A program made the position numbers and the translations under genes. Positions 199 to 48,790 of a stretch of 64,000 nt of DNA are shown here, piece by piece. The first letter of the stretch is position 1. The number at the start of each line of letters is the position of its first letter. The notes under the pieces were generated by a model. The model was not told the origin of the DNA, made no database searches, and saw nothing but the letters and a program-made list of their open reading frames with translations. Origin of the DNA: Saprospiraceae bacterium (lineage in GTDB: Bacteria > Bacteroidota > Bacteroidia > Chitinophagales > Saprospiraceae); NCBI GenBank assembly GCA_013140975.1, contig JABFRV010000029.1:1-64000 (forward strand). The letters are read 5' to 3'.

Positions 199-1719
199 CT
201 ATTTCTTTAATACATTAAATCTCTCAGATTTTTCACCTTTTGCATCAATAAAATAAAAATTATAAACTCCACTATTCAAAAAATTAAGATTTAGATTTAT
301 ATGATCTTCTCTTATTTCAATATTATAAACTACCTTTCCAAAATTATCGCAGATTTGTAAAACTCTTTTTTCTCTTGATTTAAATTTTACGTTTAAGTGG
401 TCTTGTATAGGGTTAGGATAGAACTCTACCACATCATCACTTAAGAAATTTGAATTGTCAATACTATTAACTATTTTATCTTCTATTATTATTGTATCAG
501 CACAGTTACCATTGTAACATCCATTCTTATCAAGTGTTAAAAACCAAACATTAGGATTTTTTTCCGTCGGGTAATGGTCTGGGAAAGTATCTGTAATAAC
601 GCCTGTAAAAAGAAAGTTTGAATTTATCTTATCAATTGCAACATTTGTAATAATATGATTAATATGTTTAAATCTAGAATCTATAATTATTTTATTCCAG
701 ATTATCTTCCCATCTTTCGAAATTCTTGCAACCCACGCTGGGCTAATGTTTTTTATATCATAAGTATTAACTGTACCAAAAACAAGTAAGTCGTCATTCT
801 CCAATGTCTTTATCCCATAACATTCAATATCATACCAACCATTATATTCAAGCTTCCATTTAACTTCTCCATCAGCTGATATTAAAAATACTCCAATACC
901 TTCAATTGCATTAACTCCTTGCTTAAACTCGTTTTCAATAGGACTACAACAATAAAAATTACCATTTGGGCCATTACTTACATATGTAAGTCCAAATACA
1001 AGAGACTTCACAGTCCTTACTATTTTCAGCCAATCTAACTGCAACTCATTATTCAATTTTGTTAAATATATCAAGTTGCCTCCCCAAGCTCCTATTATGT
1101 AATTATTATTCGAATCTATAAGAATATTTCCACCATTAGTAATATATTTTGATTTTATTGTTACACTATCTATTTTTCTGAATTCCGAGTTAAGCCTTAA
1201 TATTTGGAAGTTTAAAGAAGGATCAGAAATATTTTCAATTTTGTTTAATAGTATATATGTGTTATTCTTGAAAAGCATACCCTGATGCCAAGAAAAATTT
1301 TCTGTTTCTAAATCTATTTGATCGATTAAATAGCCGTTAATATGGCAAATATTTATTCTTGTATAAGATTTTTCTCCCATTCGTGACATACCAGAAACAA
1401 TGATGCTATCACCACTTCTATGCATGTTAACATGCCCTGTTAATTGGGAGTGATAATCCGTGGAAAATTCCATTAATTTTTTCCAAACTACTTCACCATT
1501 AGGCCTTATTCTTAGCATGCAATTACAAAATTCTGATGGTACATCTTCATCAAGCTTACATCTAACAATTGCGCTGATTAATAAATCTCCATCAACCTCT
1601 ATACACCCTAATGCGTATTCTTTAGTTAAATTTCCAAATCCTATAGATTTTGAAACATTTTGTCCATTTGACGTAATTATGTTGAGTAAAAAAAAACTTA
1701 ATAAGTAATACTTCATCAT
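199..1719 (-). CDS. Secreted protein with T9SS C-terminal sorting domain, propeller-like body
   Basis: Predicted exported protein of 506 residues. An N-terminal hydrophobic signal (YYLLSFFLLNIITSNGQ) is followed by about 400 residues of beta-rich repeats of the kind seen in delta-60/beta-propeller proteins (recurring patterns such as 'GEVVWKK', 'GKIIWNK', 'GEVKWKLEYNG'). The last ~75 residues hold 'VEFYPNPIQDHLNVKF' and end in 'RFNVLKK', the form of a type A T9SS sorting domain, so the protein is probably carried across the outer membrane and anchored or released. Its start overlaps the end of the truncated ORF upstream by four bases (ATGA). The substrate or role cannot be told from the sequence. 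Confidence is high for a T9SS cargo and low for function. Confidence 0.85.
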   Translation of the reverse strand: MMKYYLLSFFLLNIITSNGQNVSKSIGFGNLTKEYALGCIEVDGDLLISAIVRCKLDEDVPSEFCNCMLRIRPNGEVVWKKLMEFSTDYHSQLTGHVNMHRSGDSIIVSGMSRMGEKSYTRINICHINGYLIDQIDLETENFSWHQGMLFKNNTYILLNKIENISDPSLNFQILRLNSEFRKIDSVTIKSKYITNGGNILIDSNNNYIIGAWGGNLIYLTKLNNELQLDWLKIVRTVKSLVFGLTYVSNGPNGNFYCCSPIENEFKQGVNAIEGIGVFLISADGEVKWKLEYNGWYDIECYGIKTLENDDLLVFGTVNTYDIKNISPAWVARISKDGKIIWNKIIIDSRFKHINHIITNVAIDKINSNFLFTGVITDTFPDHYPTEKNPNVWFLTLDKNGCYNGNCADTIIIEDKIVNSIDNSNFLSDDVVEFYPNPIQDHLNVKFKSREKRVLQICDNFGKVVYNIEIREDHINLNLNFLNSGVYNFYFIDAKGEKSERFNVLKK

Positions 1720-2261
1720 TTTAAATTATATATTAACCTCGACTGGATCTCATTTTTACTTTCAACAACAATTATCAATAGTTCTTTTGGAAGATAACTT
1801 AGTTCGATTTCATAAACTTCAGATGAAGTTTCTAATTCAAATCTTTTTCTTCCTAGAATATCAAAAATTGAAATATTTTTCTTTATTTTTTGAGGATCTT
1901 TTACAAGTATAACGTTTTGGCCATTAACTAGTTCAATTACTTTATAACCATTAATTTCCTTTTTTATTTGGGGCTCTAAGCTTTCCTCTAATGGAAGAGG
2001 ATCGTTAATCAATATATTATATTCCCTTAAAAGTATGCCTCTAGCAAATCCTCGATTAATACTATTACTATTTGCAATTTCCGTTAATAGAATTGAGTCC
2101 AAAGGAGTTATTGTTGGATTTGAATTCATAAAATCTATATTAAGCAATTGTATCTCTTTAAATTCTACAAATTCACTTGTATTTGGAATCAAGTCAATGT
2201 AAATTAGTGCTGAATCTAGTTGTTCGTGTATAAAATGATGTATCCGTCCTAGCAAGTGCAT
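1716..2261 (-). pseudogene. 3' remnant of a T9SS-type secreted protein gene, cut by the IS66 element
   Basis: An open frame of 181 codons whose first eight codons (MHLLGRIH) lie in the inverted repeat of the IS66 element. Host sequence begins at about 2239. What remains looks like the end of a longer protein. The final ~70 residues ('ISIFDILGRKRFELE' then a terminal 'SRLIYNLK') resemble a T9SS sorting-domain tail, but the preceding YPNP motif is not obvious and there is no signal peptide. The ORF ends in overlap with the next T9SS gene, so the two were probably co-transcribed before the insertion. It is unlikely to give an exported product now. Confidence 0.7.
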
Positions 2262-2264
2262 ATC
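2240..2264. repeat. IS66 terminal inverted repeat, left end
   Basis: Begins TGTATCCGTCCTAG and pairs with the reverse complement of 4525-4549, with 22 of 25 bases agreeing by eye. It marks the 3' side of the transposase gene. Confidence 0.8.
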
Positions 2265-2268
2265 AATT

Positions 2269-3774
2269 CTACGAGATAGCTTTTATCCAATTGTGTGGTA
2301 GCAAGTCATCAATTTGATTAATGGGATGATCATTAATTCTAAGGAATATGTCAAGCAACCACTCCATGGGATTAATATTATTTATTTTGCACGTTCCTAA
2401 TAGTGAATAAATCATTGCAGCACGCTGTGCACTTTCGTGGGATCCAGCAAATAAATAATTTTTACGACCTAAGGCAATTGGTCTTATTACATTTTCAACT
2501 AAGTTGTTGTCAATTTCAACTTGGCCTAGTTCGACATATTTTGTTAATTTGTCCCAGCGCTTGAGTGTATATGCAAATGCTTTTCCAATGGCACTGGTTG
2601 GTAATATTGAATTAACATTTTTTTCTAAATAATCTCTAATTTCATCCAAGATAGACTTGCTTTCTGATTGTCTTAAATTTTTTCTACTTTCTATATTCAT
2701 GTTTTCATCTCTGGCCCTTTGTTCAATCAGATAGAGTTTTCGAATCTTCTTTAAAACATATTCTGCTCGTTCTTTATCATTTTCTAACGCTTGTTCAAAA
2801 TATCTTCGTGTGTGAGCCCAGCAACTTACTATGTTTATTCCATTGATGTATTCTAATTGATCGTAAACTGCTTAGCCATCTACTTGGATAATTCCTCTAA
2901 ATGAACTTATATGATTATGTAAATGCTCACTGCTTCTTCCTTTTTGATATGAAAAAACAACTAAATTGTTTTGTGGATCCCTAGTAGCCCACATATATCC
3001 TAAATGAGTATTCCCTTTTTTCTCTTCAGTTTGTACTTTGTATGGACTCTCATCATTCTGTATATAATTACTGCTTAATGTTGTTTTGACTAAAGCATCA
3101 TATATCGGGGTTAATAATTCAACATACTGACTTACCCATTGACCAAAACTAGATTTAGAGAGATCCACATTGTGATTTCTTTTAAACATTGGTAGCTGTC
3201 TATACAAAGGCAAATGATCCATATATTTTTGTACGATCACATGAGACATCATTTGTGGGCCAGCAATACACTTATTTATAGGCCTTGAAGACATATCTGC
3301 AATAACGATCTTCTGAGTTATTGGATTGACATATTTAGGTCTTTCTGTTCTCCTAACAAACATCACACCTGGATTGTATTCCAATTCTTCGGTAACCAGT
3401 GTTCCAATAAACTTCATGTCTTCTGTTAGACCCTCTGGTTCAATTACAGTTGTAACTCGTTGCAAATGTGATGGCAATTCTTTACGTCCACCTTTTTTAC
3501 GAACCGTTTTTTGTTTTGTGATAACTATTTCTTCTGATAGATTTTCTAACTTATTTTCTTCTATTAATTCGACGTTTTGAGAAAATAATGTATTGGGTGG
3601 AAGAGGGGGTTCATTGCTAATAAATCGCTCTGATTTTTTTCCAAATATTACTCGTCTAAAATAATCTAATTCGTGCTTTAGCTTTTCATTTTCAATTTTA
3701 AATTCCGTGTTCTGCTTTAGTATTTCCTCAATACTGATTTCTATTTTTTGATTTGATATTTCTTGCTTTAACAC
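2269..3774 (-). pseudogene. tnpC: IS66 transposase (tnpC), interrupted by one in-frame stop codon
   Basis: The ORF track shows two pieces, 2872-3774 (N-terminal 300 codons) and 2269-2700 (C-terminal part). They are in the same frame, and translating through the gap gives one continuous IS66 transposase of about 501 codons broken only by TAA at 2872-2874. The N-terminal part has a coiled-coil region and 'FGKKSERF', then the zinc-finger/helix region and 'QNDESP', which holds the likely first catalytic Asp. The stop falls directly after 'IIQVDG', next to the second conserved Asp, where family members usually carry Tyr. Downstream 'SCWAHTRRYF' and 'NLVENVIRPIALGRKNYLFAGS' are typical IS66 motifs. 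A C-terminal reinitiation product would lack most of the active site. Confidence 0.9.
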
Positions 3775-34162: not shown

Positions 34163-36466
34163 CTATAGTTGCATATTTTAAAAATTATATCTCTTGAATA
34201 CTTATTCAATTTAATTCAAACTTATAATTTTTAAAATGCTTAATAAAATTGTTAACTTGCTCTTTATCAGATTCATTTTCAATAAGACACTTATCTAGAT
34301 TATTCAAAATTATTTTGACATTTTCTTTATTTAAGTCTACATAACGAATAAAATGATTAAATTTTTTTAAATTACAATTATTTAAATGCCTTATTGCAAG
34401 TTCAGTTAAAAATTCAGGTCCATGTTTAAAACTCTTTAATACTCCTGTAGCAATCCAATCTGAGATATTACTTTCATTAACCGAAGCAATATAAATAGAT
34501 TCAAAAAGACTATTATTAGCAGTTTTAATAAGAATATTAGCTATTGGATAGTTAAGCTTATAGGTATTAAAGTTTTCAATAATCGCTTCTTGTAATATAG
34601 AAGAATCAATAATCTGTATATCTGTGCGACCTAAGTAGTTTAAATGACTGTAAATGAATCCTGATAACTCATTACTTAAGCAATCTGATTTTTGCTCTTT
34701 AAATTTTTTAATGTCATTATAAATTTCATTAGAATAGTTAATGTATTCGTCTTGGAGTAATTCAATAATAAGCTGTCTTTGAAAAGTTTGATCAATTTTT
34801 AATTTTTCATTTAAACCCCAAATAGCCATTATGCTATCATACTTGATGCTATTTAGAGTATAGCAGTCAAATTGACCTTGATTAATGCTAGTATCATAAT
34901 TGTTACTATTAATTTTTCTTTTTTTTAGTTTCTTTGATTCTAAATGACACGAAGAAGCAAGATAAAAATCTTTAAGTAAATTATACTCATCTGAATTTAT
35001 AGCATGTTCAACAATTGTTTGCTTAAGAAAATACTTATAAAATTCTTCAACCAGCTTTTTATGCTCTTCATATTTGGTTGTCATACTTCCGAATCTAGTA
35101 TCCCAAGTCGAATCAAAATATAGTCTATAATCATAATAAATTCTATAAATAGAATCAAGTTTTTCAAATTGATTATTGATTCTCCAATTCTTTAATATTC
35201 TCTTTGAATTATTTATGCTTACGGGTAAGTTTATTCCAATAATTTTTCCATCTTTGCTTATGTCGCTACCATTAATTATTACTCCTTTCTGCGAAGGTGA
35301 ACGAAATGTATCTAAAATTGACTTTTCATAAGAGACAATAGGTTTATTTCCAAATATATAGTACTTAAGACTATCTACGTCTTGGCAAAATAAAATGCTA
35401 TTTTGCAGAATTAAAGTGATTATAATTTTAATCTTGTATTTTAATTTTTCTTCCATTGGTAACCTTCTATTTTTTTTGATGGATCATATGACCAATCATA
35501 GTCGTTAAGTATATGTTTGTCTTTATAACTTTTCTTTCTACATTCTTCTTCTTCATATTTAGTTCTAACATTTTCACCACTCAAATTAAGAAATTTATAC
35601 TTATCATTATAAATACCAGCTTTTATCTTTTCATCAAAACCATATGACTTATTACTAATTTCAAAAGTATCGGGGAAGTAATCATCATCCATGTCATATT
35701 CATTATCATAACCATTTGGCCAAAGTAAATAATAAACATTTGTGTGATACATTTCATGAAGCAATGTACTTGTAAATGCTTCAATAGCATCAATATTTAC
35801 TAAGCCTCCGCCAATAGGAGGTTGCAGTTCACTTTTTGTGTAACCATTAACATTTCCAATAATAATCTTTCTGGTATTGTCATGATCTATTCCCACTCTT
35901 TGCCACCTATTATCTGTTGTTTTTAAACCAGTACCTTCTGTAACTATTGTAACAACATGACTGTGCGCACCTGCGGAAATTGTATTCTTACTAGTAGGGT
36001 ATTGAAAGTCTCCGGTATTAGAGAACTCTATTGGAATAGTAGCACTTGACTTTGTGCTATTCCATGTAAATCCTACTTGAGGAAAGGGATTAATTGTTGC
36101 TAGTAAAATAGGTTCGGTATTATTTAATCCTTTTGATAAAGCTGCATTTTTCCAATAATAAAACCAATTGGGTACAGAATTATCATGAATATTATTATCA
36201 TATCTTCTGAAGAATACTTTCATTGTTTTAGTTGGGTTAGGTGCTGGGTCAGTACTTAGAACAACATCAGTACCTCGCTCTAACTTTACAACTCCATAAG
36301 TATCTCCAAAATCATTGTTATTTGTTGGTAGCTTATTAGCAGGGATGAATGCTTTTCCTTTCTGAGCCCAGATATTTGGTATTAATGGTTTTAGATCCCA
36401 ATAATTATCAGAGCCACCACCTCCTAATTTCCAAGTCATATTATTAAATGGTGGTTGACCCAGTGC
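34163..36466. repeat. Tandem duplication, copy A (about 2.3 kb)
   Basis: Matches 36489-38792 at a constant offset of 2326 bases. No difference was seen in the stretches compared, and the encoded 416-residue proteins are identical. Between the copies, 36467-36488 is only partly similar to 38793-38814 (about 14 of 22 bases). Confidence 0.9.
34206..35456 (-). CDS. Exported 416-residue protein of unknown family, copy A
   Basis: The N-terminal segment 'YKIKIIITLILQNSILFCQ' is a likely signal peptide. The rest has no domain that I recognise. The first third includes 'SPSQKGVIINGSDISKDGKIIGINLPV', the rest is mostly helical and Asn/Ile/Lys-rich ('FKEQKSDCLSNELSGFIYSHLNYLG', 'ATGVLKSFKHGPEFLTELAIRHLNNC'), and the final 100 residues look like helical repeats. 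It starts inside the last codons of the protease-like gene upstream (16-base overlap), so the two are translated together. An identical copy lies at 36532-37782. Confidence 0.75.
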   Translation of the reverse strand: MEEKLKYKIKIIITLILQNSILFCQDVDSLKYYIFGNKPIVSYEKSILDTFRSPSQKGVIINGSDISKDGKIIGINLPVSINNSKRILKNWRINNQFEKLDSIYRIYYDYRLYFDSTWDTRFGSMTTKYEEHKKLVEEFYKYFLKQTIVEHAINSDEYNLLKDFYLASSCHLESKKLKKRKINSNNYDTSINQGQFDCYTLNSIKYDSIMAIWGLNEKLKIDQTFQRQLIIELLQDEYINYSNEIYNDIKKFKEQKSDCLSNELSGFIYSHLNYLGRTDIQIIDSSILQEAIIENFNTYKLNYPIANILIKTANNSLFESIYIASVNESNISDWIATGVLKSFKHGPEFLTELAIRHLNNCNLKKFNHFIRYVDLNKENVKIILNNLDKCLIENESDKEQVNNFIKHFKNYKFELN

Positions 36467-36535
36467 TTTGCAAGATGTTTCTTCTGCACTATAGTTGCAT
36501 ATTTTAAAAATTATATCTCTTGAATACTTATTCAA
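35441..36535 (-). pseudogene. Putative secreted zinc protease, copy A, truncated at the N-terminus
   Basis: Residues from 'ALGQPPFNN' to the end are identical to the full-length copy at 37767-39029, including 'LLHEMYHTN'. The first ~78 residues of that copy, with the signal peptide, are missing. In their place are 18 codons read from the tail of the neighbouring duplicate ('NKYSRDIIFKICNYSAEETSC'). The only start in the track is TTG at 36535, overlapping the stop of the 416-codon gene as TTGA. Without a signal peptide the product could not be exported, so I call it a broken copy although the HExxH domain is whole. Confidence 0.7.
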
Positions 36536-38792
36536 TTTAATTCAAACTTATAATTTTTAAAATGCTTAATAAAATTGTTAACTTGCTCTTTATCAGATTC
36601 ATTTTCAATAAGACACTTATCTAGATTATTCAAAATTATTTTGACATTTTCTTTATTTAAGTCTACATAACGAATAAAATGATTAAATTTTTTTAAATTA
36701 CAATTATTTAAATGCCTTATTGCAAGTTCAGTTAAAAATTCAGGTCCATGTTTAAAACTCTTTAATACTCCTGTAGCAATCCAATCTGAGATATTACTTT
36801 CATTAACCGAAGCAATATAAATAGATTCAAAAAGACTATTATTAGCAGTTTTAATAAGAATATTAGCTATTGGATAGTTAAGCTTATAGGTATTAAAGTT
36901 TTCAATAATCGCTTCTTGTAATATAGAAGAATCAATAATCTGTATATCTGTGCGACCTAAGTAGTTTAAATGACTGTAAATGAATCCTGATAACTCATTA
37001 CTTAAGCAATCTGATTTTTGCTCTTTAAATTTTTTAATGTCATTATAAATTTCATTAGAATAGTTAATGTATTCGTCTTGGAGTAATTCAATAATAAGCT
37101 GTCTTTGAAAAGTTTGATCAATTTTTAATTTTTCATTTAAACCCCAAATAGCCATTATGCTATCATACTTGATGCTATTTAGAGTATAGCAGTCAAATTG
37201 ACCTTGATTAATGCTAGTATCATAATTGTTACTATTAATTTTTCTTTTTTTTAGTTTCTTTGATTCTAAATGACACGAAGAAGCAAGATAAAAATCTTTA
37301 AGTAAATTATACTCATCTGAATTTATAGCATGTTCAACAATTGTTTGCTTAAGAAAATACTTATAAAATTCTTCAACCAGCTTTTTATGCTCTTCATATT
37401 TGGTTGTCATACTTCCGAATCTAGTATCCCAAGTCGAATCAAAATATAGTCTATAATCATAATAAATTCTATAAATAGAATCAAGTTTTTCAAATTGATT
37501 ATTGATTCTCCAATTCTTTAATATTCTCTTTGAATTATTTATGCTTACGGGTAAGTTTATTCCAATAATTTTTCCATCTTTGCTTATGTCGCTACCATTA
37601 ATTATTACTCCTTTCTGCGAAGGTGAACGAAATGTATCTAAAATTGACTTTTCATAAGAGACAATAGGTTTATTTCCAAATATATAGTACTTAAGACTAT
37701 CTACGTCTTGGCAAAATAAAATGCTATTTTGCAGAATTAAAGTGATTATAATTTTAATCTTGTATTTTAATTTTTCTTCCATTGGTAACCTTCTATTTTT
37801 TTTGATGGATCATATGACCAATCATAGTCGTTAAGTATATGTTTGTCTTTATAACTTTTCTTTCTACATTCTTCTTCTTCATATTTAGTTCTAACATTTT
37901 CACCACTCAAATTAAGAAATTTATACTTATCATTATAAATACCAGCTTTTATCTTTTCATCAAAACCATATGACTTATTACTAATTTCAAAAGTATCGGG
38001 GAAGTAATCATCATCCATGTCATATTCATTATCATAACCATTTGGCCAAAGTAAATAATAAACATTTGTGTGATACATTTCATGAAGCAATGTACTTGTA
38101 AATGCTTCAATAGCATCAATATTTACTAAGCCTCCGCCAATAGGAGGTTGCAGTTCACTTTTTGTGTAACCATTAACATTTCCAATAATAATCTTTCTGG
38201 TATTGTCATGATCTATTCCCACTCTTTGCCACCTATTATCTGTTGTTTTTAAACCAGTACCTTCTGTAACTATTGTAACAACATGACTGTGCGCACCTGC
38301 GGAAATTGTATTCTTACTAGTAGGGTATTGAAAGTCTCCGGTATTAGAGAACTCTATTGGAATAGTAGCACTTGACTTTGTGCTATTCCATGTAAATCCT
38401 ACTTGAGGAAAGGGATTAATTGTTGCTAGTAAAATAGGTTCGGTATTATTTAATCCTTTTGATAAAGCTGCATTTTTCCAATAATAAAACCAATTGGGTA
38501 CAGAATTATCATGAATATTATTATCATATCTTCTGAAGAATACTTTCATTGTTTTAGTTGGGTTAGGTGCTGGGTCAGTACTTAGAACAACATCAGTACC
38601 TCGCTCTAACTTTACAACTCCATAAGTATCTCCAAAATCATTGTTATTTGTTGGTAGCTTATTAGCAGGGATGAATGCTTTTCCTTTCTGAGCCCAGATA
38701 TTTGGTATTAATGGTTTTAGATCCCAATAATTATCAGAGCCACCACCTCCTAATTTCCAAGTCATATTATTAAATGGTGGTTGACCCAGTGC
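36489..38792. repeat. Tandem duplication, copy B (about 2.3 kb)
   Basis: Second copy of 34163-36466. It carries the tail of the complete protease-like gene and the whole second 416-codon gene. Confidence 0.9.
36532..37782 (-). CDS. Exported 416-residue protein of unknown family, copy B
   Basis: Identical in translation to 34206-35456: likely signal peptide in the first ~25 residues, then a mainly helical body without a recognised domain. This copy directly follows the complete protease-like gene, which it overlaps by 16 bases, so it is probably the original one. The constant pairing of the two genes suggests that this protein works with the protease, for instance as inhibitor, chaperone or substrate. 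That is inference only. Confidence 0.78.
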   Translation of the reverse strand: MEEKLKYKIKIIITLILQNSILFCQDVDSLKYYIFGNKPIVSYEKSILDTFRSPSQKGVIINGSDISKDGKIIGINLPVSINNSKRILKNWRINNQFEKLDSIYRIYYDYRLYFDSTWDTRFGSMTTKYEEHKKLVEEFYKYFLKQTIVEHAINSDEYNLLKDFYLASSCHLESKKLKKRKINSNNYDTSINQGQFDCYTLNSIKYDSIMAIWGLNEKLKIDQTFQRQLIIELLQDEYINYSNEIYNDIKKFKEQKSDCLSNELSGFIYSHLNYLGRTDIQIIDSSILQEAIIENFNTYKLNYPIANILIKTANNSLFESIYIASVNESNISDWIATGVLKSFKHGPEFLTELAIRHLNNCNLKKFNHFIRYVDLNKENVKIILNNLDKCLIENESDKEQVNNFIKHFKNYKFELN

Positions 38793-39029
38793 CTTATAAG
38801 ATATTTCCTCAGTTACTACAGCATTAGTAACAGGATCAGTACCACTTACTACTACTTTCCATTTTTTAGAACTCTTAAAGTCATCAATTACTAATTGATT
38901 CACACACTCCACATTCAAGCCATTCCCTCCGGGTGGCCCAGGGTTATTATCCTGTACTTGTGAATGAATGGAGTTTAGCATAAATGCATTTAAGAGTAGA
39001 AACGAAATTGATTGATTTATAATTCTCAT
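37767..39029 (-). CDS. Putative secreted zinc metalloprotease (HExxH), full-length copy
   Basis: A 420-residue protein with signal peptide (SISFLLLNAFMLNSIHSQ), a Pro/Gly-rich stretch 'NNPGPPGGNG' and a beta-rich middle. 'AFTSTLLHEMYHTNVYYLL' (residues ~310-327) carries the HExxH zinc-protease motif at 316-320. A Glu/Asp-rich segment follows ('DNEYDMDDDYFPDTFE'), and it could supply the third zinc ligand, perhaps Glu348, though this is a guess. No T9SS sorting domain is seen at the end ('KKIEGYQWKKN'), so the protein may stay in the periplasm or leave by another route. It starts eight bases after the SprB-like gene and is probably in its operon. No family was recognised. Confidence 0.72.
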   Translation of the reverse strand: MRIINQSISFLLLNAFMLNSIHSQVQDNNPGPPGGNGLNVECVNQLVIDDFKSSKKWKVVVSGTDPVTNAVVTEEISYKALGQPPFNNMTWKLGGGGSDNYWDLKPLIPNIWAQKGKAFIPANKLPTNNNDFGDTYGVVKLERGTDVVLSTDPAPNPTKTMKVFFRRYDNNIHDNSVPNWFYYWKNAALSKGLNNTEPILLATINPFPQVGFTWNSTKSSATIPIEFSNTGDFQYPTSKNTISAGAHSHVVTIVTEGTGLKTTDNRWQRVGIDHDNTRKIIIGNVNGYTKSELQPPIGGGLVNIDAIEAFTSTLLHEMYHTNVYYLLWPNGYDNEYDMDDDYFPDTFEISNKSYGFDEKIKAGIYNDKYKFLNLSGENVRTKYEEEECRKKSYKDKHILNDYDWSYDPSKKIEGYQWKKN

Positions 39030-39037
39030 ATATTGGA

Positions 39038-42000
39038 TTATTTTTTAATGATTTTATAAACTCCAATGACCTCTTCTGATGACTTAACAGTTATGAAGTA
39101 CATACCTTGACTCAAATCCTTCAAGTTACACTCTTTGACACTTCTACCTTTTTGCACATTTACGTCTTTATAAGTCTTCATCACCTTACCTGTAGGGTCG
39201 TGAATGATATAATCTATAATCTGTAAGTCAGTTGAGGTAAATATGAAATTGACATTGTCTTGAGTTGGGTTGGGATACATACCCTCAATAGCTAAATTTC
39301 TTGTTATTCTAGATGATATATCTGGGTACTTAATCTGGTTACCACTTGTCCTTGGGTCTATTATAAATACAGTTGCATTGCAATCATAATCAATTCCGTT
39401 TACAGAATTTCCATTAAATTGAATATTGGGTCCATTAAAGGTCGTTAATAGTCCAAACTTATTATCGGTAGAAACAACTCCATCAATGAGATTATCTGAT
39501 CCTTGGCCCGTTGATTGAAGATAGCTGATTAAATTATTTTGAACATTATACCTTATCATAAAAATATCTTTCAATTCAGAACTCATTGAATTGTTTACAC
39601 TTATATTCATGTCACCTTTGAATGTACCAGAAAGGTAATAATCAGCATTTAATTCGTCTGGCACAATAGATTTAACTTCTAAAGATTGTGAACTTGTTAT
39701 GGTATTAATAAATCCAATGGCAGGGTTTTGAATATCAAAAATACTTGCATAATTGATTGAATCATCCAGTGAAGAATAATTCACAATTGCTTTATGATAT
39801 CCTAATTGAGCAGAATAGATTGAATTAATAGTACCATTAACAGGAATAGAGCTTGTTGTCCAAGTGCTATTCGAGCTGTTAAATGAAATTATATCTATAG
39901 CAGGAATAGTTGATGTATTATTAGTAGATATAACTGTCAAACCACTATTGGATTTTACTATTTTCGCATCTGAAGGAATTGAGTTCATCGGCAAATCTAA
40001 AGGACTTCCTGTTAGATTATTATTGAGGTTTACAATTTTTAAACTAACTCCTAGATTGCCTGTACCATTATCATATGGATAATTACTAATTAATAAGTCT
40101 GCAGATCCATTAGGATTCATCAAAACATCAAATAACTTAGTATAAGAATCATTGAATAACAATGAAGAATTAACAAATATTCCATTCCCATCAAAATCAA
40201 TCTTAATGACATTCGGATCGTCATTATTAAGCAAGATACTGCTTCCAATACCTTCAAGTTTAGTTGCATTAGCCAATAAAGAGAATCCTGTTCCTTGTTG
40301 TATTAGGTCAATAATATTGAATTCCCAATCATGCGCATCTGGAATATTAACTTGTGTGTGACGCGAATTAACAAATATTCCATTCTGATCATAAAATGAC
40401 ATTTTAATAGCTTTTCCATTAAATCCAAATGATACAAATGCATTTAAGTTATTTAAATAATGGAATTTGGTTGGGCAGTCTTTTAGACCTGGAGGCTCCA
40501 GGCAATTTGGCGCATTAGGATTTTCACATTTGGCATAAGGAACTACTTTCTCTTTATAAAGGTCATGATGATAAGTCAGTGTTTGAGAATTTTCAGGATA
40601 TCCCCAACATTCATGTGTTTCCTTACATTTTCCTTCTTTATCGTCATAACAATATTTTAAATCTGAAATATAGGCTTCTATTTCAAAATGTGTATCAAAC
40701 CCACCATTATAAATATACTTTCTTTGATAAGTTCCACACATTTTATTTTTATAAGTAGGCCAAAATGAAATAATAGCGTTGTAGATATCACTAAAGTTAG
40801 TCTTAAATATAATTGGGTCATCTATTCTTTCTTCAAAGGTTAAATTAACTTGAGGGCAATTTACTCTAACCCAGTCACCCCTAGATCTGTAAATTTTTTT
40901 ATCACCATTAGGGCTTTGAAATACACAAACGCTACCTTCAATACATTCATTGCTTTCTTTATCATGTATTGTAACCTTATGAATATCACCTTGCAAATTT
41001 TCAGTAGTATTTCCACAGGTATAACTTAGTGTACATTCTATTTTTTTAAAATCTTCTGTAAGTTCAGCAGGCTGTGAAAATTGAAATTTACCATCACAAT
41101 AAAATTCTTGCTTACAAGCAGGTGGAGTGCTTACTATTTTAGATGAAAGCCGTGGAAAAACATTAAAGTAGTGCCTAGATACACAGCCGGCGCCATCTGT
41201 TAATACTACATATGGCAGCTGAAAAGGATTGTTTATTCTATAAGCAGTAAACTTAAATTTAAATATGCCTTTATTTTTTTCCTCAGAATCTAAGCCATTT
41301 GAAGTATAACAATCCATACTAAATGGCGGAATCATATCAGAACCATGTACTTTAAAAGTAATTATCATTTCATCACGATTCCAGCAATATGTATTACCGC
41401 TTACGTCGACATTATAATTGCTATTTATACAATCTCTTAATTTTAATGTTATACTTTTACAGTCAGAAGAATAACAAGTATAGTCTCCTGGTGCCAAATT
41501 TTCTAAGAATCTCCCTTCGTTCTTAAATCCGTTAGGTCCAGCCCATGTATAAGAGCATGTAGTTTCTCCGGTCATAATAATTTTACCATTATTCTCTCCA
41601 CTACTAGGATGAAATATGAGAGGTAATTTTGTACAATAACTTCCTGTCTTATACGGGCAACATGTTTGTTTTATTTGGATTTTTTGAGAGCACCCATTAT
41701 TATCCGTTACTGTAACATAAATTGGATTACTGTTGTTAACTTGAAGATATTTTTCATTGCTAGTTGTTCCATCAGGCCATATATATGTAAAAGGCCCATC
41801 ACTATTTTCATGCAATATTACGTGATTATAATTTATGCTTCCAACTAAACATTCCTGTTGTACATTTACTTTAGGCAAAATATCAACATATCTACATAAG
41901 TATTTATACTTTGTCCCACAATAAATATTCACACAATACTCACCTGAAGAATTTATTTCAATTGACCTTTCGTTAGAGCCGTTTCCTGACCATGAAAAAT

Positions 42001-43966
42001 TACAGAATTCATGACCTGTAATAGTTAATTTCGTTTTACCCCCATTTACGGAACAGTTAGCTTCGATTTTAAGATCATTTTCTTCAGTAGTTGCTGGGAT
42101 GATAATTTGCTCACGAGCGCAACATTCTCCACAATAAATATATAAATAATATATTCCTTCAGTTAAACTTCTTAAAGTAAGTGGAAAAGTGCTATTTCTT
42201 TTTTCACCTTTAAGAAATACATTATTGCATTCAATAGAGGAAGAGTTACTTGTTAAGAGATAGTAATAATCAGTTAACTTTTCCGTGCATAAATTCTTAA
42301 TATAAATAACAGCTTCACCTTCACCACCATAGGTTTCCCTGTTATCTGCAACTCTAATATCTACGTTAATATCTTGACTGCTATAAATTTGATTCACATT
42401 TAAATTTTCTATTTCCGGGCACAAAGTATTACTTATCTTATATTTACCAACTGCGGCGTTAAAATAATGTTTACCTTTCGATAAAGATAATACATCACTT
42501 TTATTGAATCCATTTCCAGAAATGGTTATTTTGGCATCTTCCCTTAGTAGATCAACAATTAACGAACCATCTGTAAAATTGCAGGATGCATCTATTGAAC
42601 TGGCTGATAAATTATTCCCTTTTGAATCTCCAATAAAAAAGGATAAACTTTCACTACAATCAATATTATCAGTATAATATACTATTGAATATAAACCTAC
42701 CTTATTAAAGAATAATCTTTTTTCATTAGGGTTAACACTTCCATTGTATTGTAGATTGCCCAATACATCTTTAATAAAGTAATTAATTACTTTAGTATAA
42801 TTATTGGCAATTTCATAAATTCCACTTTTATTATAATCTTTTCCACATGTTCCCTTTTCCAATATAGTTAATGTAAGCTTACCTTTAATTGGCTCTCTTT
42901 TGTCGATTATGTTCACTGTTATTAATTCTTGACAATAAGTTGATAAATTAGTTACTTCTATCAAATATGTTCCAGGACTGAAAAAGTCAATAGTTTTGGA
43001 AGTACTTCTTCCTGGCTCTTCTTCTTTTTTAACGAGTATCCTATAATCCTCAGTTTTAAAATAATGAATGTTTAACTCTAGAGTAACGGATGCACAAAAT
43101 AAATCAAGGTTTACTAAGCCATTTGGAGAGGCAACTAGATCGCAATTTTTTATTATTTCGAAACACTTTTTATTAATTATTCTATTAGAACAACAGAATA
43201 TATCTACACAATAAGAACCAGGCAATAGTGATGAAGGACTCTTCTTTGAGCTAATATATCCATTGTTGCCAGTCCAAAAGTATTTTAAATTTGGATTATC
43301 AACATTCTCGAGAGTTATAGCCCCTTTATCACTATTACTTATATAATTTTTAATAGAATACAAGAATTCAAAATTACACTTATAACTTTGATCTACATCA
43401 ACATCGAAACATCCACTTTTTCTACATCCGTTTACATCATAGATAGTTACACAATACGTACCTTTAGATAACATATTAATAGATCCTTGATTTGAGCCAT
43501 TTGACCAGTTAAATGAATATGGTGGATTCCCACCTGTGATATATTCTAATTCTAGGCTACCATCATTAGTAGAAGAACAATTAACTGGATGTATTAAATA
43601 ATCAAAATCTAAAGTATTTATTTCTTCAAATATTTCTGCAAGCCGTTCAACATAACATGCATGATCAAAATATATTACGACTTTGTACTTACCATATTTT
43701 AAGAAGTTTATTGGAAACGAATTATGTGTCATTATAATCGTTCCACTTGTTCCGTCTTCATGGGTAAAAGATACCTCATAAGGCAAGGGATAAGGCATTT
43801 CATTTGGAGGGACTGTGCCTCCTCTTGAAAATGTAATATTTATGCTCCCATTTTCGCTTCCTGAACACTCGTTACTTGTTAACAAGTCCAAATTCCAATT
43901 CACTTGTGAAAAAGAGCTCATACTGGTAAATAATATAATTAAAAATGCGCTAAGAAGATTCTTCAT
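39038..43966 (-). CDS. Giant SprB-like T9SS surface protein
   Basis: A 1642-residue secreted protein with signal peptide (LLSAFLIILFTSMSSFSQ). Residues ~128-195 are a SprB-type repeat ('NDGSLELEYITGGNPPYSFNWSNGS', 'GTYCVTIYDVNGCRKSG'), with weaker related units further on ('YIWPDGTTSNEKYLQVNN', 'VTVTDNNGCSQKI', 'SYTWAGPNGFKNEGRFL'). Many of these are unusually Cys-rich ('YCVDIFCCSN', 'EYCVNIYCG'). A Cys-rich central domain (~1030-1200) is followed by a propeller-like stretch with many Asn/Ser. The T9SS domain starts at 'EGMYPNPTQDNVNF' and ends 'SEEVIGVYKIIKK'. SprB itself is a gliding adhesin, but adhesin or matrix function here is inference. Confidence 0.85.
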   Translation of the reverse strand: MKNLLSAFLIILFTSMSSFSQVNWNLDLLTSNECSGSENGSINITFSRGGTVPPNEMPYPLPYEVSFTHEDGTSGTIIMTHNSFPINFLKYGKYKVVIYFDHACYVERLAEIFEEINTLDFDYLIHPVNCSSTNDGSLELEYITGGNPPYSFNWSNGSNQGSINMLSKGTYCVTIYDVNGCRKSGCFDVDVDQSYKCNFEFLYSIKNYISNSDKGAITLENVDNPNLKYFWTGNNGYISSKKSPSSLLPGSYCVDIFCCSNRIINKKCFEIIKNCDLVASPNGLVNLDLFCASVTLELNIHYFKTEDYRILVKKEEEPGRSTSKTIDFFSPGTYLIEVTNLSTYCQELITVNIIDKREPIKGKLTLTILEKGTCGKDYNKSGIYEIANNYTKVINYFIKDVLGNLQYNGSVNPNEKRLFFNKVGLYSIVYYTDNIDCSESLSFFIGDSKGNNLSASSIDASCNFTDGSLIVDLLREDAKITISGNGFNKSDVLSLSKGKHYFNAAVGKYKISNTLCPEIENLNVNQIYSSQDINVDIRVADNRETYGGEGEAVIYIKNLCTEKLTDYYYLLTSNSSSIECNNVFLKGEKRNSTFPLTLRSLTEGIYYLYIYCGECCAREQIIIPATTEENDLKIEANCSVNGGKTKLTITGHEFCNFSWSGNGSNERSIEINSSGEYCVNIYCGTKYKYLCRYVDILPKVNVQQECLVGSINYNHVILHENSDGPFTYIWPDGTTSNEKYLQVNNSNPIYVTVTDNNGCSQKIQIKQTCCPYKTGSYCTKLPLIFHPSSGENNGKIIMTGETTCSYTWAGPNGFKNEGRFLENLAPGDYTCYSSDCKSITLKLRDCINSNYNVDVSGNTYCWNRDEMIITFKVHGSDMIPPFSMDCYTSNGLDSEEKNKGIFKFKFTAYRINNPFQLPYVVLTDGAGCVSRHYFNVFPRLSSKIVSTPPACKQEFYCDGKFQFSQPAELTEDFKKIECTLSYTCGNTTENLQGDIHKVTIHDKESNECIEGSVCVFQSPNGDKKIYRSRGDWVRVNCPQVNLTFEERIDDPIIFKTNFSDIYNAIISFWPTYKNKMCGTYQRKYIYNGGFDTHFEIEAYISDLKYCYDDKEGKCKETHECWGYPENSQTLTYHHDLYKEKVVPYAKCENPNAPNCLEPPGLKDCPTKFHYLNNLNAFVSFGFNGKAIKMSFYDQNGIFVNSRHTQVNIPDAHDWEFNIIDLIQQGTGFSLLANATKLEGIGSSILLNNDDPNVIKIDFDGNGIFVNSSLLFNDSYTKLFDVLMNPNGSADLLISNYPYDNGTGNLGVSLKIVNLNNNLTGSPLDLPMNSIPSDAKIVKSNSGLTVISTNNTSTIPAIDIISFNSSNSTWTTSSIPVNGTINSIYSAQLGYHKAIVNYSSLDDSINYASIFDIQNPAIGFINTITSSQSLEVKSIVPDELNADYYLSGTFKGDMNISVNNSMSSELKDIFMIRYNVQNNLISYLQSTGQGSDNLIDGVVSTDNKFGLLTTFNGPNIQFNGNSVNGIDYDCNATVFIIDPRTSGNQIKYPDISSRITRNLAIEGMYPNPTQDNVNFIFTSTDLQIIDYIIHDPTGKVMKTYKDVNVQKGRSVKECNLKDLSQGMYFITVKSSEEVIGVYKIIKK

Positions 43967-44390: not shown

Positions 44391-44954
44391 ATGAAAACTA
44401 TTACACCACTTATTATTAATCCTTTTAATAATCCTTTATTTGCTCTGGATCCTCAAATAGGCATATCAAAAGACATTAATTCTACCTACTTGCTTTGCTC
44501 TACATATTTTAGTAGCAATCCTTCCATCTTCAGATTACATTCTACATTGACTAAATTTTATTCAAATTATAATTCACTTATAAGGAGTCATTTGATCATT
44601 AATAATTTAATTCTATTTGTGTCAGAATTTATTGGAAATGAAAGACTTATTACTCTTAATGATATAAGCAAAAATATTTGTATTAGTGAAATACACTTAT
44701 ACAAAACTGTTCGTAAGGAATTAGGAATCAGTCCTAGAATACTATTACAAGATTATTATGTATCACAAATAATCATCTTATATATATCGTATGGGCTATC
44801 AATCAAAGAAATAACTGAAAAGCTTGGATTTCAGGAAACATCAAGTCTTTGTCATTTCTTTAAGCGTAAATCAGGATACACAATAAGTGCGCTTAAAAAA
44901 ATACAAAACAATGATTTAAACAGTTTTTCCAAAGTTTCAAACAACTTACACTAA
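44391..44954 (+). CDS. AraC-family transcriptional regulator
   Basis: A 187-residue protein. The last ~95 residues form the AraC-type double helix-turn-helix: 'ITLNDISKNICISEIHLYKTVRKELGISPR' (first HTH) and 'LSIKEITEKLGFQETSSLCHFFKRKSGYT' (second HTH, with the typical GFxxxSxFxRxFK pattern). The N-terminal ~90 residues have no cupin-like sensor that I recognise and are shorter than in standard AraC proteins. It lies between the two divergent exported-protein operons and is the obvious candidate to control them. Confidence 0.88.
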   Translation: MKTITPLIINPFNNPLFALDPQIGISKDINSTYLLCSTYFSSNPSIFRLHSTLTKFYSNYNSLIRSHLIINNLILFVSEFIGNERLITLNDISKNICISEIHLYKTVRKELGISPRILLQDYYVSQIIILYISYGLSIKEITEKLGFQETSSLCHFFKRKSGYTISALKKIQNNDLNSFSKVSNNLH

Positions 44955-44966
44955 ATATGATCATAG

Positions 44967-44974
44967 TACTTTTG
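44967..44974 (+). promoter_or_regulatory. -7 promoter element for the T9SS-hydrolase-propeller operon
   Basis: TACTTTTG matches TAnnTTTG, 35 bases before the ATG at 45010 and after the stop of the regulator gene. The operon may therefore be transcribed apart from the regulator. Confidence 0.5.
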
Positions 44975-45009
44975 TCTTGATATTATTAAAACACTAAATT
45001 TTTTATCTT

Positions 45010-46026
45010 ATGAGAAAGTCCATTTACATTTTTTTACTTTTATTTTATGATGTAGCAATTTCGCAATTTCCAGAAAAACCGGTTGAGTTTCTTGAACACC
45101 TTCATTACTTTGAAGAGCATCGTGAAATTACTATGAAAGATAATACAACAGATTTAACAATTATGGATAAAGGTGCTGTTGCTCCTAAATCCAGTACTTC
45201 TATTGTAGATCTTTATTTGCTTCGAAATGGATATATTTTAAAATTTGAAAAGATGATTTCAAATTCTCAAGATCAATCCTATTTTAACAATATTGCTTAT
45301 ATTGTTACTGATGAAAATAAAGTGACTACTTACAATGCTCAAAAAAAATTAATCAACGAAGTTTCACTTAAGTCCATTGATCCTGGATATACTCCTCAAA
45401 AAGCAAGAACCTTATTGAAGCCAAGAATTGAATTCAATGATGAGACTATTGATCATGTTAAAAAAGAAGGTCTTGAAATTCAAAGTCTTAGTAACAATGT
45501 CTGGAAGATTTATAATTCTGACTTGATAATATACTACAATTTACAGGCTCAGTCTATAATTACCCAGGAAGTTGAATCTGGTAAAATTACTTCAACTCAT
45601 TTTAATAAGTATATTGAAATTATCGAAAATGAATTTTTTGATGGTGTTGATCAGATTTCAATTCCACTTACTGTTCGTAGTGGTGAGGTATTAAATAATT
45701 ACAAGGTTAACAATAGATCTGAATTTACATTTATCCGCAATTCGCCTTTAAAAGGAAGATCGAATGTAAAATACAATTCTAGTTCTAAAAAAGATGAAAA
45801 GGGATTTATTTATCCTAATATCGCTTTTAATGAAATTCGGATACAAAATTATGGTTTGCATAAATTTGAATTTTATAGTATAACATCTATAGATTCAAAA
45901 ATGAGTAAAATAAATCAGAAAATTAAGTCAGAAGTAATAGATGTAAGTGATTTAATGCCCGGTGTTTACATTATTCGACTTTATAATAAACAGGGAATAA
46001 AAAAAGAAAAATTTATAAAAATCTAA
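45010..46026 (+). CDS. Secreted protein with T9SS sorting domain
   Basis: A 338-residue protein with signal peptide (KSIYIFLLLFYDVAISQ). The middle has no recognised domain: 'LDHVKKEGLEIQS' type Lys-rich beta segments, and 'VDLYLLRNGYILKFEKMI'. The last ~75 residues ('IYPNIAFNEIRIQNYGLHKFEFYS', 'LMPGVYIIRLYNKQGIKKEKFIKI', in parts) form a T9SS sorting domain with YPNIA in place of YPNP. It is followed by the alpha/beta hydrolase with an 11-base gap, so the two are co-expressed. Its function is unknown. Confidence 0.8.
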   Translation: MRKSIYIFLLLFYDVAISQFPEKPVEFLEHLHYFEEHREITMKDNTTDLTIMDKGAVAPKSSTSIVDLYLLRNGYILKFEKMISNSQDQSYFNNIAYIVTDENKVTTYNAQKKLINEVSLKSIDPGYTPQKARTLLKPRIEFNDETIDHVKKEGLEIQSLSNNVWKIYNSDLIIYYNLQAQSIITQEVESGKITSTHFNKYIEIIENEFFDGVDQISIPLTVRSGEVLNNYKVNNRSEFTFIRNSPLKGRSNVKYNSSSKKDEKGFIYPNIAFNEIRIQNYGLHKFEFYSITSIDSKMSKINQKIKSEVIDVSDLMPGVYIIRLYNKQGIKKEKFIKI

Positions 46027-46037
46027 ATCTTAACATT

Positions 46038-47504
46038 ATGAAAATTTATTTAATTTTATTATCTTTGATTTGTGTAAATATTAGAAGCTTTTCTCAGCCT
46101 GGTTCTGGAAGCATGAATATTAATGGAAATTCTTTAACAGGTTATGGTTCTCCCTCTGGTCCAACTAATGTTGCCGATGATCGAAGAGTGTTTTGGATTC
46201 ATGGGCTTGGAGGAGATCCCCTAACAACTTGGAATAAAGCAGCTGCAGAATATCAATCCACTCACAGAATAAGAAATACTTTTCCTGCCTATACACAGAC
46301 AGGATTGAAAGGTGGAGCACAAAATGTCTTAGAAATTATGAATCAGACATTAAAAGGAACCAGTCCAACAAAAGAACCTATTGCAGTCTGCCATAGTCAA
46401 GGTGGTGTGGTTGCAAGAGCTGTACTTTACGAATCAGAAGTTGTTCTAAAAGAACAATCTCCTATTCGAGGCATAGCAACATTTGATTCTCCTCACGGTG
46501 GTGCCTTAATAATTGACAATATTGATAACATTTTACAAATGGTTGAAGAGGGCTGCTCAAAATTAATAGAAGGACCGGTTGTAGAATTTGTTCAATCTAA
46601 ATTTTTACTAGATCTTTTCGTTAATGCTGAAGACATAGCAAGAAAAGTTGGTGGATTAGCTTGTCCGGTTGCAGAAAAGGCTCTAGGAATTGCATTTAAA
46701 GAATTGAAAAGCCCGATAGGCAAAGATTATAGTCATACGAACCCATCAGAATATTTTTCTAAATTAGGACACTTAACCTTTCCGCACATTTCTAAAGTCG
46801 CATTTGCAGGTTATGAAGAAGAGCCGGTTTTATTCAGACAAATGTTTTGGTTATTAAACTCACCGGAGAGTGTACCCGCTTTTACGGCTAACGAAGATCA
46901 TGAATTCGTTGATAAATTTAATACGTTAACAAATACTTATTATTCCAAATATAAGTCTAAAATTGCAAGAATAGAAATTTATAACAATATAGCTTGTTCT
47001 TTACATCCTTTCTGTTTGATAGATAAGATAATTAAAACGAATAAATTTAGAAGAGAGGCTAACGCATATTTAAATGGTTACAATTGGTTAACAACTCTTA
47101 ATCAAAATTGGAAAGTAATGATAGGAGCAGGAGAATATAGAAACACTGAAATAGGAGAGTGTTCATGCTCGCAATACACTTATGATGGTAACTTTGTTAC
47201 AGAATATTTTATAGATGGTATTTGCAACTCTGGGTTTGACGAGTGCAGGTCAAATTCTTATCCTGAAAATTTTATATATTGCGACTGTAAATCCTTAGGT
47301 CATCAAATATTTTATTATGATATTGAGCCAAGTGATGCTGTTGTTCCTGTAAGTTCTCAATATGCATTCCCTGGAGTAGAACATAAGGTTAAACTAGATA
47401 AAAGCAATCACCAACAATGTCGAAATGATAGAAATACTAAAGAAGCATTGGATAACTTATTTTTGGGTAACTATGGATTAACCTTCGAAGCTAAACGCAG
47501 ATAA
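46038..47504 (+). CDS. Exported alpha/beta hydrolase (lipase/esterase-like)
   Basis: A 488-residue protein with signal peptide (IYLILLSLICVNIRSFSQ). Residues ~53-59 'WIHGLGGDP' are the oxyanion-loop motif of lipases, and 'AVCHSQGGVVARAV' holds the nucleophile elbow with Ser ~120 (H-S-Q-G, PGAP1/lipase-like). 'EPSDAVVPVSSQYAFPGVEH' with a later 'KSNHQQCRND' gives the likely catalytic Asp and His. The late part is Cys-rich ('GECSCSQYTYD', 'YCDCKSLGH'), probably disulfide-bonded outside the cytoplasm. It likely cleaves an ester or lipid, substrate unknown. No T9SS tail is seen. Confidence 0.82.
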   Translation: MKIYLILLSLICVNIRSFSQPGSGSMNINGNSLTGYGSPSGPTNVADDRRVFWIHGLGGDPLTTWNKAAAEYQSTHRIRNTFPAYTQTGLKGGAQNVLEIMNQTLKGTSPTKEPIAVCHSQGGVVARAVLYESEVVLKEQSPIRGIATFDSPHGGALIIDNIDNILQMVEEGCSKLIEGPVVEFVQSKFLLDLFVNAEDIARKVGGLACPVAEKALGIAFKELKSPIGKDYSHTNPSEYFSKLGHLTFPHISKVAFAGYEEEPVLFRQMFWLLNSPESVPAFTANEDHEFVDKFNTLTNTYYSKYKSKIARIEIYNNIACSLHPFCLIDKIIKTNKFRREANAYLNGYNWLTTLNQNWKVMIGAGEYRNTEIGECSCSQYTYDGNFVTEYFIDGICNSGFDECRSNSYPENFIYCDCKSLGHQIFYYDIEPSDAVVPVSSQYAFPGVEHKVKLDKSNHQQCRNDRNTKEALDNLFLGNYGLTFEAKRR

Positions 47505-47512
47505 TATTGATT

Positions 47513-48790
47513 ATGAAAAATATCATGCTATTTTTAATGTTGATTATAATTTCTTGTCATAAATATAATCCAGATACAGTAGATCCGCCAGATCCTCCCA
47601 AGCAAAAGGATACTCTTCAGGTTGTTTGGTATTCTTACGTTAGAGATAATTCAGATACCGTATCGAGATTTTGTTTAAAACCGGTTTTCTTCAATAATTT
47701 CGTAATTACTTCTTCCTTTAATATACCAGGTCCTGAAAAAGAACAATTTCATTGTTTCAATAAAAAAACAGGAGAAAGAGAATGGATTTGGCAAGACTAT
47801 TTTGATAGGGGATTTGGTAGCAGGATCAATTTTAGAGATCATATCAGGTATATTGATCCCAGTGGTTCTTTTCTTCTAGCTGAAGCTTACTCTTTCTATA
47901 ATATTGACCTAAATACCGGCAAGACAATTAATTCCCTCAACTTTTATCCTTATATCGATGCATTGCAAGGTGGCACATTAGACGTAACCTATTATAAAGA
48001 TGGTTTTCTGGCATCCTATGGCTTCAATGATATTCCCAATACTGACTCTTCCATATTATATCAAATTGATAAAAACAATATGGATATTCGTGAAATATTA
48101 AAAATTAAAAATTCAGGTGAGTATTATCCTTTCATTCAAAATACTTACCTACATGTTAGACCTAATAATGATACTTTCCTGATTGGATCTTTTGGCTGGC
48201 TAAAAATAAAGCATTCAGAAGAAAAATACGATTTATTCTGTTATAATTTAACGAAGAAGGAATTTGTATGGAAAAAAGATAGCTTTAGCAAACAACTCAA
48301 TAATAACTTATATCTTCAAGACGGAAAATTGTACTGTGTTGCGTATAATGATTTTTATTCAATTGAAATTGAGACTGGCGATATTATTTGGAAGGGTGGG
48401 CCTTCCTTCACCGACGAAGGTTTTTTTCTAGATCCATTAACAATTGCCGAAGGAAAAATATTTGCAAAAACTACTTTAGGTCATATGTTTTGCGTAGATC
48501 AAAATACAGGATCAGTTATCTGGTCTAATAAAAAACATGAAGAATCTGGAGCTGCTAGCCTAGGTCAAAACTCAAAAATTGAATATTACAAAGGAAAAAT
48601 TTACTTTTCCGATAATACTATGCGAATCTTAGATGCATCGAATGGTTCATTATTACACAAATATAATTCTCCTAAATCTGTGCCTCAATATCCTGAAAAT
48701 TATATTGAAGGTATTACTATCGATCCTGAATCAGAATTAATGTACTTTACAGATGGATACCATTTGATTTGCGCTAAAATTCCGAAGTAA
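47513..48790 (+). CDS. PQQ-like beta-propeller lipoprotein
   Basis: A lipoprotein of about 425 residues. I prefer the ATG at 47513 to the TTG at 47507 in the track. The signal 'NIMLFLMLIIISCHK' puts the lipid-modified Cys near residue 15, followed by a Pro/Asp-rich linker 'DPPDPPKQKD'. The body has repeated propeller strands typical of PQQ-like/quinoprotein-fold proteins ('NKKTGEREWIW', 'DINIETGDIIWKGG'-like 'EIETGDIIWKGG', 'DQNTGSVIWSNKK', 'LDASNGSLLHKYN'). PQQ itself is not implied. It follows the hydrolase within about eight bases and ends the operon before a hairpin terminator. Confidence 0.83.
   Translation: MKNIMLFLMLIIISCHKYNPDTVDPPDPPKQKDTLQVVWYSYVRDNSDTVSRFCLKPVFFNNFVITSSFNIPGPEKEQFHCFNKKTGEREWIWQDYFDRGFGSRINFRDHIRYIDPSGSFLLAEAYSFYNIDLNTGKTINSLNFYPYIDALQGGTLDVTYYKDGFLASYGFNDIPNTDSSILYQIDKNNMDIREILKIKNSGEYYPFIQNTYLHVRPNNDTFLIGSFGWLKIKHSEEKYDLFCYNLTKKEFVWKKDSFSKQLNNNLYLQDGKLYCVAYNDFYSIEIETGDIIWKGGPSFTDEGFFLDPLTIAEGKIFAKTTLGHMFCVDQNTGSVIWSNKKHEESGAASLGQNSKIEYYKGKIYFSDNTMRILDASNGSLLHKYNSPKSVPQYPENYIEGITIDPESELMYFTDGYHLICAKIPK

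Follow-up and report, generated by a model that had tools for sequence, protein, structure and literature searches.

The 420-aa exported protein encoded in the window (the whole analysed stretch of DNA, 64,000 nucleotides) is, judging from its sequence, probably a zinc enzyme of a widespread, unnamed family. It has an HExxH motif within a conserved motif set and a signal-like N-terminus, and it is paired with a second protein that also begins with a signal-like segment; in Bacteroidota, the pair recurrently has a T9SS-type protein as its neighbour. The reading that we tentatively prefer takes the enzyme for an exported metalloprotease and its dedicated, likewise exported partner for an inhibitor-type protein; in Bacteroidota the two would be tied to T9SS surface proteins and possibly form an effector-immunity pair. 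Spread over about a dozen phyla and without a Pfam, NCBIfam or solved-structure name, the family is a useful addition to the secreted metalloenzymes.

The three-gene run and its tandem repeat

All three genes of the run (Table 1) are co-directional. The 1642-aa gene is separated by 8 bp from the HExxH gene, which in turn overlaps the 416-aa gene by 16 bp; these ORF coordinates agree with the tight spacing described in the first-pass annotation, as does its description of the giant protein as a Cys-rich T9SS protein. In particular, the sorting tail is of T9SS type A (PF18962, 37.6 bits against a cut-off of 27; TIGR04183, 35.3 against 23), and the protein contains 56 cysteines in 1642 residues, nearly all at residues 100-1200. 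The label "SprB-like giant" holds in that the SprB repeats exceed the cut-off, barely (28.5 vs 28), but it singles out nothing special in a genome that contains about two dozen SprB-repeat ORFs. Signal peptides were called by eye.

Table 1. Coordinates of the genes and repeat units of the three-gene run in the window
Feature	Position	Strand	Description
1642-aa exported protein	39038..43966	-	SprB repeats; Cys-rich first 1200 residues; T9SS type A sorting domain 1563-1642
420-aa exported HExxH protein	37767..39029	-	hydrophobic signal-like N-terminal segment
416-aa exported partner	36532..37782	-	predicted all-helical (low confidence)
HExxH gene copy, truncated	35441..36535	-	364-aa ORF, TTG start, without signal peptide
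416-aa partner gene, identical second copy	34206..35456	-	
Exact tandem repeat, copy 1	36489..38792		2,304 bp, period 2,326
Exact tandem repeat, copy 2	34163..36466		2,304 bp
Junction island	36467..36488		22 nt; 14/22 identical to parental 38793-38814

The exact repeat spans the entire 416-aa gene but takes in the HExxH gene only from about codon 80 (residues ~80-420). The second HExxH copy therefore has neither the signal peptide nor the first 79 or so residues, and is probably not exported, and the 416-aa gene alone has been duplicated whole. This weakens the argument of the first-pass annotation that the two genes form a fixed pair since they were duplicated together: one segment of DNA was copied, with the second enzyme gene cut short, so that joint duplication by itself is no proof of a functional pair, and the claim of a pair rests on other genomes. 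By its sequence, the junction island is probably what is left of an older copy that had diverged before it was homogenised; 39 of 63,978 window positions match as well or better. Alternatively, the exact repeat may be an assembly error.

Divergent from the giant gene, a run on the plus strand (44391-48790) comprises an AraC-type regulator and three further genes, encoding a 338-aa protein with a weak T9SS tail, a PGAP1/palmitoyl-thioesterase-like hydrolase and a PQQ-type beta-propeller.

Only one other such enzyme locus (C5) is present in the genome. Its set comprises the genes for a 612-aa HExxH protein and a 583-aa exported protein, which overlap, together with that for a SprB-repeat protein of 907 aa with a sorting tail under the cut-off. 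The HExxH proteins of the window and C5 are related (BLASTP E 2e-09), and no relation between the two partners is detectable by BLAST.

Distribution of the family and gene order around it

Profiles were needed to find relatives of the HExxH protein, a single-sequence search of 60 nearer relatives having given no match outside its own genome. Over 298 genomes of the same taxonomic family, a two-sequence profile added three genomes (4/298 including its own), none of the same-genus genomes searched has the HExxH family, and the 60 nearer relatives together with samples of the order and class yielded almost nothing new. One scan of a species-representative collection returned 42 loci, of which seven carry a Saprospiraceae or Bacteroidota label and the others come from about a dozen phyla; as lone exported proteins, members of the family are widespread in environmental bacteria. 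In a tree built from 40 sequences, all seven rows of Bacteroidota group together (97/84) on long branches, with end branches of 1.4-4.1 against a median of 0.39.

In Bacteroidota, the partner gene overlaps the enzyme gene or follows it within 10 bp at seven of eight loci (window, C5, L058, L059, L060, L062 and L077); the exception, L099, has no partner, and its enzyme gene is itself split between frames. A gene with a T9SS tail and/or SprB repeats is adjacent at seven of nine loci (window, C5, L059, L060, L061, L062 and L099), where the L060 neighbour is a fragment with SprB repeats, a small gene intervenes at L061, the flanks of L058 and L077 are incomplete, and L058 and L061 come from one assembly. 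Co-occurrence of the two smaller genes elsewhere was a check that the first-pass annotation had proposed; both this pair and its neighbour of T9SS type are found again in other genomes. Since at least 150 T9SS-tail matches occur in this 4-Mb genome, we roughly estimate the chance of such a neighbour at 10-20% per gene, and the adjacency at seven of nine loci is by this estimate above chance, although the loci are related and not independent.

These figures bear on a simpler reading, namely an ordinary secreted or periplasmic protease, housekeeping or nutritional, that has a self-protection partner and a T9SS neighbour of the kind that readily arises by chance. The many lone exported members in environmental bacteria and the plentiful T9SS-tail genes are what such a protease would lead one to expect, but the adjacency exceeds the base rate, with the reservation about related loci just made, and in Bacteroidota the family occurs patchily and on unusually long branches, which likewise speaks against it; we consider this reading unlikely.

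The same adjacency could also reflect maturation, with the enzyme and a helical chaperone or adaptor trimming or assembling the adjacent T9SS repeat protein in the periplasm, which all three proteins cross, or at the surface. Such a role would account for the tight linkage at the seven loci, but it is improbable on three counts: the neighbouring T9SS proteins have little in common past SprB-type repeats, which are above the cut-off in only some of the seven, with the exception of one close pair; the genome contains just two such enzyme loci against its many T9SS-tail matches; and the Desulfobacterota and Nitrospirota enzymes mostly stand alone, without such a neighbour.

Outside Bacteroidota, no T9SS-type neighbour was seen in the stretches examined, so that the enzyme's biology does not always involve the surface protein, which the first-pass annotation had built into its account of the protease. 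A different arrangement is found at four loci; in the tree, their rows are placed basal to the stand-alone ones and form no clade of their own. At L063 (Chloroflexota) and L069 (Pontiellaceae, Kiritimatiellota), a HEAT-repeat gene lies directly downstream, with gaps of -1 and +2 bp, respectively; at L074 (Acidobacteriota) and L098 (Armatimonadota), the HEAT-repeat ORF downstream, as called, shares 34 and 116 bp with the enzyme gene, or lies at about -4 and +20 bp from likelier internal starts (chosen by eye).

Several loci contain further features. At L099 (880-2151), the split HExxH gene, possibly a decaying copy or a sequencing error, is directly followed by a 1446-aa T9SS-tail gene. At L060, the gene directly upstream of the HExxH gene (411-1358) encodes an exported protein of 315 aa with a HEAT match under the cut-off; the HExxH gene has a downstream helical partner too. 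At L037 (G000:C125, 30-6042), two exported genes (558 and 217 aa), neither with a Pfam match over the cut-off, lie in front of a SprB-repeat gene (1214 aa, 64 Cys, T9SS tail); the layout is that of the window set, but no homology of the two to the window pair is detectable. In Planctomycetota, one HExxH family member (L093, 5014-8295) combines ankyrin repeats and a PPC domain in a single protein.

The HExxH protein and its partner

The motif of the 420-aa protein is HEMYH at residues 316-320 (H316, E317 and H320), where the first-pass annotation had placed it. Also present are PNWFYYW at 178-184, E385, DW at 403-404 and a calcium-type motif, D337-x-D339-x-D341-xxx-D345-xx-E348. In an alignment of 28 relatives over about eleven phyla, from which the C5 paralogue was left out, HExxH is kept in 28/28, and is therefore no chance motif. 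The invariant residues of this alignment include PNW..YW, H316, E317, H320, D339, D341, E348, E385, D403 and W404; as motifs, HExxH, PNWxxYW, DxDxD..PDxxE, E385 and DW are invariant or nearly so. The C5 paralogue keeps HExxH but has YQH where the others have YEE, and thus apparently lacks E385 unless it is misaligned.

As the first-pass annotation had stated, neither the 420-aa nor the 416-aa protein belongs to a recognised family: nothing scores above the cut-off in Pfam, NCBIfam or PADLOC, and no Pfam or NCBIfam model covers the members of the HExxH family. The 420-aa protein has no sequence match in the PDB, where no solved relative was found, and our literature searches found no description of the family. 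Two assignments were tried and rejected. Membership in Aspzincin M35 (PF14521) fails in that 27/28 members have no match at E <= 0.01, the remaining, distant member (L063) reaches 23.5 bits, under the cut-off of 30, and a profile comparison aligns no more than 15 columns around HExxH with a probability of 16%. A role in anti-phage defence was dropped, there being no PADLOC match at E <= 0.01.

Aspzincin matches do occur at two other loci. The 742-aa protein of L120 (G593, 928-3156, minus strand) has an HELTH-containing N-terminal region together with an Aspzincin M35 match. On the minus strand of L122 (G000:C113, 670-3102), a gene for a protein with a Gly/Ser-rich linker and a C-terminal Aspzincin M35 domain, a 123-aa gene and a short second Aspzincin form a run that resembles a toxin locus with an orphan module.

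The structure model of the HExxH protein is of low to moderate confidence (mean pLDDT 58, pTM 0.63). It places HExxH on a helix (307-327) and E385 on a later one (379-394), the order expected of HExxH + Glu enzymes. E385, invariant in the 28-sequence alignment although apparently different in the C5 paralogue, is a candidate third metal ligand. A Foldseek search of this model (pLDDT 58) against the PDB had no hit at E <= 0.001, and the 50 best matches include no zincin; the Ig-like matches, none with E <= 0.001, were set aside. Thus, of the zincin-like fold with an HExxH helix foreseen in the first-pass annotation, the helix is predicted and a fold match was not obtained with this model. It is very unlikely that the protein is no enzyme and that HExxH is structural in a calcium-binding surface or adhesive protein, since the weak PDB profile matches of the family, which cover the short DxDxD..PDxxE motif only, a TSP3 repeat above the cut-off in one member and weak scores, far under the cut-offs, of one member with cohesion and gliding models are outweighed by the invariance of HExxH and a downstream Glu across 28 diverged sequences, which would be difficult to account for if these residues had no metal-site function.

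The partners begin with signal-like segments, as called by eye, and at the seven Bacteroidota loci that have one the partner is rich in helix. In terms of identity, those of Bacteroidota are more diverged still than their enzymes (18-23% to the window partner vs 24-33% for the enzymes of the same loci), and the partner alignment consists of six very diverged sequences. With a profile built for the partner, hits outside the known loci were weak; many fell in the N-terminal signal region, some contained stops, and they were not used. The partner was not accepted as a HEAT protein: neither the window partner nor the other Bacteroidota partners match a HEAT profile, and hhalign of the window-type partner against the HEAT partners gave a probability of 0.1%, i.e. 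no detectable link. The model of the 416-aa protein is all-helical but unreliable (pLDDT 44.5, pTM 0.30); it gave no fold match, and such a search is meaningless at pLDDT 44.

Proposed role and comparison with known systems

In the preferred reading, that of a metalloprotease with an inhibitor-type partner, the 420-aa protein would leave the cytoplasm by the Sec route and act as a calcium-binding zinc metalloprotease from a family not yet described. The 416-aa protein, exported and helical, would be dedicated to it as a partner, most likely inhibiting it in the periplasm (as an immunity-type guard) and so keeping it off the envelope proteins of the producer. In Bacteroidota, the pair is attached to genes of T9SS-exported repeat proteins, probably so that the enzyme can act outside the cell or at contact with a neighbour. 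Zinc binding, proteolysis, inhibition, the route out of the cell and the antagonistic role are what we infer here, just as the first-pass annotation had suggested processing, defence or attack at the cell surface from context. The fast evolution, the diverged partners and the patchy presence are as expected for conflict genes, although fast evolution could equally reflect relaxed constraint. Most relatives outside Bacteroidota lack a partner, so that an inhibitor would not be generally needed. Against this reading stand the failure to match a zincin fold with a model of low to moderate confidence, the unreliable partner model and its missing link to the HEAT partners, the apparent loss of E385 in the C5 paralogue, and the HExxH protein itself, which has no T9SS tail. 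That the locus is, in full, a T9SS-linked antagonistic cassette, with a new zinc/calcium metalloprotease effector, an exported helical-solenoid immunity protein, delivery along with T9SS repeat proteins or display on them and a HEAT-guarded parallel in other phyla, seems to us rather doubtful.

SprB of Flavobacterium johnsoniae is a gliding adhesin. The 1642-aa protein shares SprB repeats and T9SS export with it; unlike SprB, it is 1642 aa long, its tail is of type A and its SprB repeats are confined to two stretches, and it is one of about two dozen SprB-repeat ORFs in its genome. With Aspzincin M35, the enzyme has HExxH in common, but the invariant acidic residues differ.

Two published systems provide precedents, which make an effector-immunity pair plausible by analogy and are no evidence for the window locus itself. 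The first is Tox-MPTase with HEAT/ankyrin immunity, from a catalogue that lists HExxH domains as toxins and HEAT and ankyrin proteins as immunity proteins (PMC3482391); the HEAT-repeat genes directly downstream of the enzyme in four other lineages count in favour of the preferred reading in this light. Here, too, an HExxH protein lies beside a partner predicted to be all-helical; unlike Tox-MPTase, it is stand-alone and exported, and the likeness is to the catalogue entry.

The second is the TANFOR polymorphic toxins of Bacteroidetes, found beside SprB/CTD T9SS substrates (PMC7073777). An NCBIfam scan of the window and C5 proteins up to E 1 gave no match to the TANFOR domain (TIGR02542). TANFOR toxins have a swapped C-terminal toxin, whereas all members of the HExxH family have the same catalytic-type domain; in addition, the partner of the HExxH protein is itself exported, and the effector role is here only putative. 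The two systems are alike in that an exported putative effector lies beside a T9SS substrate with SprB repeats and a sorting tail and is followed by a small cognate gene, and a neighbouring SprB/CTD T9SS substrate was found at the window locus and six other loci. The idea of antagonistic effector-immunity pairs in T9SS loci was raised as speculation in the same work (PMC7073777), and the pairing of the HExxH protein with an exported helical partner and, in Bacteroidota, with T9SS surface proteins would be a direct test case for it.
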